DNA from: Lachnospiraceae bacterium
GTDB taxonomy: Bacteria > Bacillota > Clostridia > Lachnospirales > Lachnospiraceae
Reading direction: 5' to 3'
DNA: 54,662 bases
NCBI GenBank assembly: GCA_017482485.1
Contig: JAFUMV010000020.1
Span: forward strand, 1-54,662
Positions 111 to 1,716 of the stretch are shown in pieces. The notes beneath the pieces were generated by a model. It did no database searches, was not told the origin of the DNA, and worked only from the letters and a program-made list of their open reading frames with translations. The position numbers and the translations under genes were made by a program. Within the stretch, counting starts at the first letter, position 1. Every line of letters begins with the position of its first letter.

Positions 111-1124
111 TACTTAAATACTTTATACAACCTGGGTGCTTCACCGGAACCGAACCTGACTGTTCTCTGGTCTCCTAGACTGCCTGAGACTTTCAAGAAG
201 TTCTGTGCTAAGACCTCTATCAATACCTCTTCTATCCAGTACGAGAACGACGAGATCATGAGAGTTGACCACGGCGATGACTACGGTATCGCTTGCTGCG
301 TATCTTCCATGGTTATCGGTAAGGAAATGCAGTTCTTCGGAGCACGTGCTAACCTTGCTAAATGTTTACTGTACTCTTTAAACGGTGGTGTTGACGAAGT
401 TACCAAGAAACAGGTTGGTCCTAAGTATCGCCCTGTTGTAGGTGATGTACTTGACTTTGATGATGTTTACAGCAAGTTCATCGATATGATCGAGTGGATG
501 GCTGGTGTTTATGTAAATACACTGAACATTATCCACTACATGCATGACAAGTACTGCTATGAAAGAGCAGAAATGGCTCTTCATGACAGAGACGTTAAGA
601 GATATTTCGCAACAGGTGTTGCTGGTCTGTCCATCGTTGCTGACTCCCTTTCCGCTATCAAGTATGCAAAGGTTGAAGTTGTTCGTGACGAAGACGGCAT
701 CATCGTTGACTTCAAGACAACCGGTGAATTCCCTAAATATGGTAATGACGATGACCGCGTAGACGAAATCGCTCAGGACGTTGTTCATAAGTTCATGACC
801 GCTGTAAGAAGACACCACACCTACAGAAATGGTATTCCTACAACATCCATCCTGACCATTACTTCCAACGTAACATATGGTAAGGCTACAGGTAACACAC
901 CTGATGGACGTAAGAAAGGACAGCCTTTCGCACCTGGTGCTAACCCGATGCACGGCCGCGATACTCATGGTGCAGTAGCATCTCTGTCTTCCGTAGCTAA
1001 GCTGCCTTTCAAGGATGCACAGGATGGTATCTCCAATACCTTCACAATCATCCCTGGCGCTCTGGGCAAAGAAGATCAGATCTTTGCTGGCGATCTGGAT
1101 ATCGATCTTGATCTGAACAAATAA
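111..1124 (+). CDS. pflB: Pyruvate formate-lyase catalytic core, 3' part (5' end missing)
   Basis: This is the C-terminal portion of the PFL core, which converts pyruvate and CoA to formate and acetyl-CoA in the anaerobic cytoplasm. The adjacent active-site cysteines (GIACCVS, codons at 294-299) are present, as are family blocks such as [47 protein letters not shown]-type STLTITSN and [10 protein letters not shown]. The protein ends with LDIDLDLNK and tandem stops just before the place where a normal PFL continues into the glycyl-radical domain. That domain is encoded separately at 1474. Homology begins abruptly near 111; everything upstream, including the usual N-terminal half and start, is absent from the window. 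An internal ATG at 258 is not a credible start because homology extends upstream of it. The core identity is secure; why the left end is broken is unknown. Confidence 0.9.
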
Positions 1125-1173
1125 TAGAAAGCGGTAACCGCAGTTCTGTTATTAAGAAATATAGGAGTCTGTT

Positions 1174-1395
1174 ATGGACGAAAAAAAAGTGATCATGAGC
1201 GAAAGTGAAATGGTCGATGATCTCATCAAAATGCTGGATGCCGGAATGGCAAACGGTACAGGACACGTAAATGTGGACTGTGGTGATGGGAAATCATCAA
1301 AAGAGGTGCAGACACTCGGGTGTACGGATTGCTCCAGAACCCCTCTTGCCTGCAGCGTTCCTACCCTGCATCAGGGACTGGACGACTATCAGTAA
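1174..1395 (+). CDS. 73-aa cysteine-bearing relative of the PFL glycyl-radical domain
   Basis: This small protein lies between the PFL core and the glycyl-radical subunit, with its own ribosome binding site (ATAGGAG, 8 nt before ATG). Residues 14-34 (VDDLIKMLD...GTGHVNV) line up with residues 10-30 of the 80-aa subunit encoded at 1474 (ENLVSLLD...GGHHLNVNV), so the two appear related. After that point it diverges. The glycyl-radical loop RVSGYAV is absent and is replaced by a tail with Cys36, Cys50, Cys53 and Cys60 (GCTDCSRTPLACSVP). It therefore cannot carry the PFL radical. It could be a regulatory, protective or metal-binding partner of the split enzyme; that is inference from position and partial similarity only. 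I do not recognise an established family name. Confidence 0.8.
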   Translation: MDEKKVIMSESEMVDDLIKMLDAGMANGTGHVNVDCGDGKSSKEVQTLGCTDCSRTPLACSVPTLHQGLDDYQ

Positions 1396-1412
1396 ACCAC
1401 GACATGGCGTAA

Positions 1413-1438
1413 CTCAAAATCGGTATTCCGGTTTTGAG
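1413..1438 (+). other. Intercistronic hairpin between the two small pfl genes
   Basis: Ten-base arms (CTCAAAATCG and CGGTTTTGAG, one G-U pair) enclose a 6-nt loop. There is no T-run, so this is not a typical terminator. It may influence mRNA stability or the ratio of the 73-aa protein to the glycyl-radical subunit. Confidence 0.5.
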
Positions 1439-1473
1439 CTGCCCAGGCCTGAATAAAATAGGAGGAATTTATC

Positions 1474-1716
1474 ATGGCAGAAAATCATGCACAGGTTGAA
1501 AACCTGGTATCCTTACTTGATGGATATGCAACAAAAGGCGGCCATCATCTGAACGTTAACGTATTAAACAGAGAGACTCTTCTGGATGCTCAGAAACATC
1601 CGGAGAACTATCCTCAGCTGACAATTCGTGTATCCGGTTACGCTGTTAACTTCATCAAGCTGACACCCGAACAGCAGGCAGACGTTATCTCCAGAACATT
1701 CCACGAATCCATCTGA
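1474..1716 (+). CDS. Stand-alone glycyl-radical subunit of split pyruvate formate-lyase
   Basis: This 80-aa protein corresponds to the last domain of PFL and to the GrcA/YfiD spare-part protein. It contains [16 protein letters not shown], then [15 protein letters not shown] with the radical glycine at Gly55, then [17 protein letters not shown]. In a usual PFL this is fused to the core; here the core at 111-1124 ends just before it, so the two must associate to form an active enzyme. A strong AGGAGG precedes the ATG. Unlike E. coli GrcA, which backs up an intact PFL, this copy sits downstream of a core that lacks the domain, so it is more likely an obligatory subunit. A PFL-activating enzyme would be required and is not in the window. 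The alternative of a sequencing frameshift is unlikely because each part has its own start, stop and ribosome binding site. Confidence 0.9.

Follow-up and report, generated by a model that had tools for sequence, protein, structure and literature searches.

A cysteine module placed on the core or on a small third protein appears to accompany the splitting of pyruvate formate-lyase in Clostridia

Pyruvate formate-lyase (PFL) is a producer of acetyl-CoA and formate in many gut anaerobes, and it is activated by PflA. Compared with PFL-1 (formate C-acetyltransferase, TIGR01255), the enzyme considered here is alike in core sequence, in the ACCV cysteine pair and in the sequence of the radical domain. 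It differs in a chain that, judging from the alignment of its radical subunit, would end near E. coli residue 678, in the FxGDL-like end of that chain and, in most relatives lacking the small protein described below, in a cysteine tail. Autonomous glycyl radical cofactors have been described as YfiD/GrcA in E. coli, Y06I in phage T4 and GrcA3 (NF038360); the locus under study encodes a GrcA3 passing the NF038360 cut-off together with a 73-aa protein, hereafter mid, whose N-terminus is homologous. According to Andorfer and colleagues (PMC8683613), E. coli YfiD rescues a one-chain PFL after oxygen damage, whereas the core analysed here has no radical domain from the outset and mid has no radical loop. 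In the same study, YfiD binding was not measurable for an E. coli PFL whose chain stops at residue 695; this protein is activated 32-fold less (glycyl radical) than a PFL cut at 734 and, once activated, matches normal activity. The missing segment thus matters for loading and not for catalysis, and residues 696-733 are named the recognition element. The split core ends even earlier than residue 695. Mid carries a counterpart of the first part of this element, without the radical glycine, but forms a protein of its own that is extended by a cysteine tail, and any functional parallel would be one of analogy.

The beta and gamma subunits of benzylsuccinate synthase (BSS) are also small cysteine-containing partners of a glycyl radical enzyme. 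These, however, are [4Fe-4S], HiPIP-like proteins of another enzyme, whereas mid combines two conserved cysteines with a GrcA3-like dock, and the four cluster cysteines of a [4Fe-4S] BSS-type subunit are not matched by the two conserved among 110 mid homologues. In the titles and abstract openings of open-licence papers, no split PFL with a third protein was recognised. As set out below, PFL in these Clostridia is often made of two or three proteins and is then associated with a cysteine module absent from the one-chain PFLs examined. This makes two questions experimental: how the open active site of a glycyl radical enzyme is protected, and what leads a spare radical domain to its core. The core tails and the mids are natural variants of one module.

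The window, the whole stretch of 54,662 nucleotides analysed, is contig C135 of 153 in a Lachnospiraceae genome of 3.48 Mb (90% complete). Core, mid and GrcA3 genes are all present as three open reading frames (table 1), the core stop codon occupying 1122-1124. The sequence-only reading had the PFL core halting before a radical domain that forms its own 80-aa gene, and open reading frames and models together bear this out. One amendment concerns the contig start, which truncates the core. The first 110 bases are AT-rich, do not continue the PFL homology and have no match to L094-L173 at E 0.01; they are probably assembly edge sequence. We also considered, and set aside, a conserved RNA element in the stretch separating the mid and GrcA3 genes, only 12 of 47 intergenic stretches of at least 35 bases having z below -2; the hairpin of the window possibly affects the mRNA.

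Table 1. Features of the split PFL locus, in window coordinates.
Feature	Position	Strand	Basis
PFL core, catalytic subunit without radical domain, ACCV cysteine pair, 5' part missing at contig start	111..1124	+	TIGR01255 441 bits, PF02901 272.9 bits (residues from base 258); PF02901 match starts at base 111
Split-specific C-terminal core segment, Cys-free; Cys tail on the 73-aa protein instead	1068..1121	+	FxGDL-like pattern
AGGAG, ribosome-binding-like box of the mid gene	1163..1167	+	read from sequence
mid, 73 aa: GrcA3-like N-terminal dock and cysteine tail	1174..1395	+	ORF, homologues, dN/dS about 0.09
mid residues 14-35, dock homologous with the start of GrcA3 (about 683-710 in E. coli PFL)	1213..1278	+	hhalign 96.5% probability; 14/23 diverse mids match the GrcA3 model; numbering via GrcA3-PFL alignment
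mid residues 49-71, cysteine tail GCTDCSRTPLACSVPTLHQGLDD	1318..1386	+	homologous to C-terminal tails of mid-less split cores, 95.8%, E 6.9e-9
Hairpin, 11-bp stem, between mid and GrcA3 genes	1413..1438	+	z -2.9 (single-base shuffles)
AGGAGG, ribosome-binding-like box of GrcA3	1460..1465	+	read from sequence
GrcA3, separate glycyl radical subunit, 80 aa; Gly55 codon 1636-1638	1474..1716	+	NF038360 159.7 bits; Gly55 placed by alignment to PFL G734

The core is a PFL-1 by TIGR01255, its 441 bits on the part given lying below the full-length cut-off of 994.2, a shortfall expected of a fragment, and its translation contains the active-site pair ACCV. The radical domain is absent from the core chain, the Gly_radical model being matched only at the first 50 of 106 positions. 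The 80-aa protein exceeds the NCBIfam cut-off for GrcA3 (158 bits), aligns with E. coli PFL 681-758, with its Gly55 (RVSGYAV) on G734, and has no conserved cysteine of its own. A segment of the form FxGDLxVxL follows ALGK in 108/108 cores of loci with mid, 36/41 cores with a cysteine tail and 5/6 cores with neither, and in 0/32 one-chain PFLs, the pattern having been composed after the data were seen; its alternating residues suggest a beta strand.

No second PFL-1 was found in the window genome at its 90% completeness. An intact full-length PFL elsewhere would have spoken against the sequence-only reading; as the sole PFL-1 found, the locus gives no sign of being a broken side copy. The other PFL-like or radical-domain matches in the genome are two NrdD (C26, C7) and two enzymes (C95, C143) that are fragments with a PFL2-type model as best match, at scores under that model's cut-off. 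The usual glycyl loop has the form RV[ST]G[YF]; the PFL2-type enzyme on C143 (L430:1405-3762, genome G000) has RIHGTFV instead and is absent from the Gly_radical search matches of the window genome. A search of the same genome for a close PflA found none (best 32% identity).

Mid combines two homologies in one protein. Its profile matches the N-terminus of GrcA3 over 33 columns (hhalign profile-profile, probability 96.5%, E 9.8e-10), whereas a reversed profile reaches 0.06% and 29 shuffled profiles at most 4.1%, which rules out a chance likeness. A resemblance of residues 14-34 to the start of the radical domain had been noticed from the sequence; it is real, but its extent is wider, about 33 columns. 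Individually, 14 of 23 diverse mids match the GrcA3 model with E values no higher than 0.01, and the window mid reaches only 0.032. On E. coli PFL this dock maps to roughly residues 683-710, and so includes the counterpart of the barrel strand and excludes the radical glycine. The second homology, which spans 24 columns, joins the tail of mid to those at the C-termini of split cores without mid; its probability and E value (table 1) come without a shuffled control. A model of its own for mid was found in neither Pfam nor NCBIfam: 23 members gave no Pfam family at E 0.01, the window mid stays far below the curated GrcA cut-off (14.3 vs 158 bits, NF038360), and its profile has no PDB sequence match (best E 3.2).

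The 73-aa protein is conserved and accompanies split PFL. Purifying selection on mid is indicated by a median dN/dS of 0.087 (20 sequences; 77/190 pairs usable, the remainder saturated). Among 110 aligned homologues, from which three more failing the start pattern are omitted, an Asp is found in 110, the Gly and His of GxGH-x-N in 109 each, an Asn in 107 and a Pro-Thr pair in 108 and 106. C53 is kept in 109/110 and C60 in 108/110; a cysteine stands at the C50 position in 64/110 and at the C36 position in 3/110. The proposal that a four-cysteine tail replaces the radical loop therefore holds in part: no aligned mid has the loop RVSGY, but only C53 and C60 are conserved. Two mids (L250, L264) end before the second conserved cysteine beside Cys-free core ends, and may represent decay of the module.

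In a search of relatives, matches to mid have an E value of at most 10 in 26 of 61 genomes and of at most 2.4e-6 in 20. The mid profile is matched at E 0.01 in 151 of the 299 family genomes, 78 of which, among the matches listed, are counted with a mid homologue; the remaining matches compared, among those listed, map to the start of GrcA3 or of the radical domain in a one-chain PFL. Of the 114 family genomes listed as having a stand-alone GrcA3, 77 have mid, against one of the 185 for which none is listed (Fisher 1.3e-41, relatedness ignored, from hand-typed lists of the matches listed); that one, G018, is 67% complete. Among named genomes, at least 527 loci were matched; mid is found at every one of the best 80, and the core end, visible in 77 of these, carries cysteines in 0/77. 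The nearest named relatives of the window mid, within the same best 80 loci out of at least 527, are mostly metagenome-assembled genomes labelled Eisenbergiella. Confinement of mid to the PFL operon was also considered and rejected: five homologues lie elsewhere (L278:4146-4346, L279:5629-5901, L280:5249-5467, L281:3916-4125, L372:1489-1731). These keep the same tail and adjoin unrelated genes, which by eye resemble cheX, moxR, ribH/proB and proB, or lie at another locus, and they count against the reading favoured below.

Cores too can carry the cysteine tail, which the sequence-only reading had not noticed. Among the matches listed for the order, 108 of 156 split loci have mid and a Cys-free core end, while 41 lack mid and have at least two cysteines on the core end; mid and a cysteine core tail were seen together in none, six loci have neither, with mid at another place in four of these genomes, and in one (L331) mid is present and the core end is not visible. 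By set, and again among the matches listed, the family set holds 73 loci with mid, 36 with the tail and five with neither, and the order set 36 (one core end unseen), five and one, respectively. The family set gave rise to the hypothesis, which was afterwards tested on the order set (42 loci, two of which were already known) and on the class set, the latter adding, from other orders, 11 split loci with three mid, six tail, none with both and two with neither. Eight duplicate loci had been removed before the count of 156, some of those remaining being near-copies from one genus, and 153 core tail/mid pairs are distinct. The family reading comprised, among the matches listed, 135 stand-alone GrcA3 loci, 114 with a core and 21 without; a few second copies and weaker stand-alone GrcA3 matches were left out of the order and class sets. 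A Cys-tail motif is found in 33/41 core tails against 0/32 unsplit PFLs. The core tails fall into sub-types, AC-x-VPTL on one side and CACCEPN and similar forms (14/41 core tails) on the other, which may have differing jobs, and the spacing of the cysteines varies from 0 to 9 residues across mids and core tails.

The expectation that the 73-aa gene would always lie between core and radical subunit does not hold. Among the matches listed, it is missing at 47 of 156 split loci, that is, from relatives with the same split core, whose existence had been put forward as evidence against the earlier proposal, and mid as obligatory neighbour of each split core is rejected on the same count. Furthermore, mid follows GrcA3 in L384, and four genomes without it at the PFL locus have the gene in another place. 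Of the 47 mid-less loci, 41 have the cysteine tail on the core, which points to a needed module and not to an optional competitor. From these comparisons, the splitting of PFL appears to go together with a cysteine module, which mid would supply in trans.

The exceptions set a bound on this need. Four of the eight genomes whose PFL locus has neither form (G014, G333, G318, G166) are those encoding mid elsewhere. In the other four (G324, G487, G827 and G731, the last 82% complete) the best match in a search for mid, beyond GrcA3 itself, has E 0.19, and the core carries no cysteine tail. With four split genomes lacking a detectable mid or tail, the module is thus not absolutely required. On the one-chain side, the linkers of 29 of 32 PFLs are Cys-free, two have a single cysteine and one (L289) is Cys-rich without the motif; no cysteine occurs in the printed linkers of the 13 class-set one-chain PFLs, and in seven one-chain PFL genomes the mid search gave, apart from the radical domain of the PFL itself, no match with E below 0.05. 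The linker of L289, TCGCEEVTC, lies between core and radical domain, making this protein a possible link between the one-chain and split forms.

A quick-search tree of 185 cores (569 columns) requires 20 changes of the mid label, with at least nine forced by supported branches, and by this branching pattern the placement of the tail switched repeatedly. Of nine independent pairs (569 columns), an average of 6.5 show core cysteines changing against mid and none show them changing with it (median p 0.016); a shorter tree (290 columns) yields five pairs and p 0.125, which is not significant. Six one-chain PFLs (L285-288, 290, 291) nest inside the split clade in quick trees, carry the signature residues of that clade and have no cysteine tail, which could have been lost on re-fusion. 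Nevertheless, a single clade of all one-chain PFLs is not rejected by the AU test (p 0.45; p 0.69, with the constrained tree even scoring above the free tree), and re-fusion is therefore not claimed.

What role might such a module have? We lean, tentatively, towards mid being a third subunit of split PFL, a carrier that would bring the two-cysteine tail to the core and guard or prime it until GrcA3 binds. Both homologies of mid, the mutual exclusion of the two placements, their repeated switching and the tie to split PFL come from sequence comparison, and mid would, we infer, bind the core. The first 35 or so residues of mid copy the segment by which GrcA3 fits the core (in a one-chain PFL, the tenth barrel strand), and the last 24 or so are the tail found on the C-terminus of other split cores. 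The tail would act at the mouth of the core active site, left open by splitting, and mid, or the tail in cis, would occupy or guard this site when GrcA3 is missing, i.e., before activation, during PflA action and after oxygen has cut GrcA3. Mid may also help a fresh GrcA3 to dock, much as YfiD needs residues 696-733 in order to bind oxygen-cut E. coli PFL. It would thus be a placeholder keeping the open core sound, and would supply in trans, with a thiol pair, a copy of the opening stretch of the recognition element that lacks the radical. Core-borne tails have no GrcA3-like dock, so that occupancy of the strand site can be at most part of the function and what the two forms share must lie in the tail. 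A fixed metal site would hardly tolerate so variable a cysteine spacing, and the cysteines would most likely serve as thiols, whether as reductant, radical quencher or reversible disulfide. A bolder extension, which we hold to be unlikely, makes the swappable tail a dedicated safeguard against radicals in those glycyl radical enzymes whose radical subunit can be exchanged: the thiol pair would enter the empty core, quench or park stray radicals and bond reversibly with the catalytic cysteines until displaced by GrcA3, mid being the trans version.

Alternatively, the tail, in cis or on mid, might be a structural clamp that binds zinc or iron or folds onto GrcA3 and holds it permanently on the core, making up for the missing peptide bond. 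The tie of the tail to the loss of the covalent link, the conservation of cysteines and a neighbouring Asp, and the closeness of the mid and GrcA3 genes (median gap 29 nt, 109 loci) would suit such a clamp; however, mid has only two conserved cysteines, their spacing is loose, GrcA3 offers no conserved cysteine in return, and a dock copying GrcA3's own segment suggests replacement over joint binding, so that we consider a clamp improbable.

Quite unlikely, in our view, is an activase adaptor, in which the tail would draw PflA, or some other partner, to the split enzyme and the dock would only tether it. A pflA homologue does follow GrcA3 in 100 of 114 family split loci among the matches listed (it lies between core and GrcA3 in three), and PMC8683613 describes the disordered YfiD N-terminus as important for radical installation in E. 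coli. Yet one-chain PFLs, also activated by PflA, have the tail motif in none of 32 cases, and at 6 of 10 named loci, the window's nearest relatives included, the stretch examined contains no pflA.

The sequence-only reading had offered competition, shielding and metal binding as possibilities. Competition between mid and GrcA3 for the core, with mid as an inhibitor or decoy throttling PFL, would draw on their common N-terminal dock and on the missing radical loop of mid; it is very doubtful, given that relatives swap mid for a dock-less core tail, which leaves competition outside the conserved function, and that the mid gene adjoins its supposed victim. That mid is functionless debris of a decayed GrcA3 duplicate, for which its partly GrcA3-like build and the homologues L250 and L264 without a tail end could be cited, is hardly credible in view of its low dN/dS, its invariant residues across 110 homologues and the strict complementarity with core tails. 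A half-site plug, with mid on one protomer and GrcA3 on the other, is conceivable but disfavoured: PMC12338860 casts doubt on half-site reactivity in vivo, and core tails do not fit.

Two further groups of small genes were observed. Among the matches listed, 21 GrcA3 genes have no PFL core upstream in the stretch read (L041, L174, L176-L182, L185, L187, L189, L192, L196, L199, L203, L207, L212, L231, L254, L277), the last standing at a contig start with pflA following. A search for a neighbour common to the 21 found none; 20 of them are in genomes with a listed mid, and these genes may be true spare parts. A second small-protein family (L032:1435-1722, L034:1447-1728, L301:3279-3572, and L033 and L035 on the - strand) has an N-terminus like that of mid (MIxDILxHLDxET..GASRMSV) and a different end, KEVSxxCCxxYGRxAxETVxLLDMYTD; in four of its five loci the preceding gene resembles, by eye, endonuclease III.
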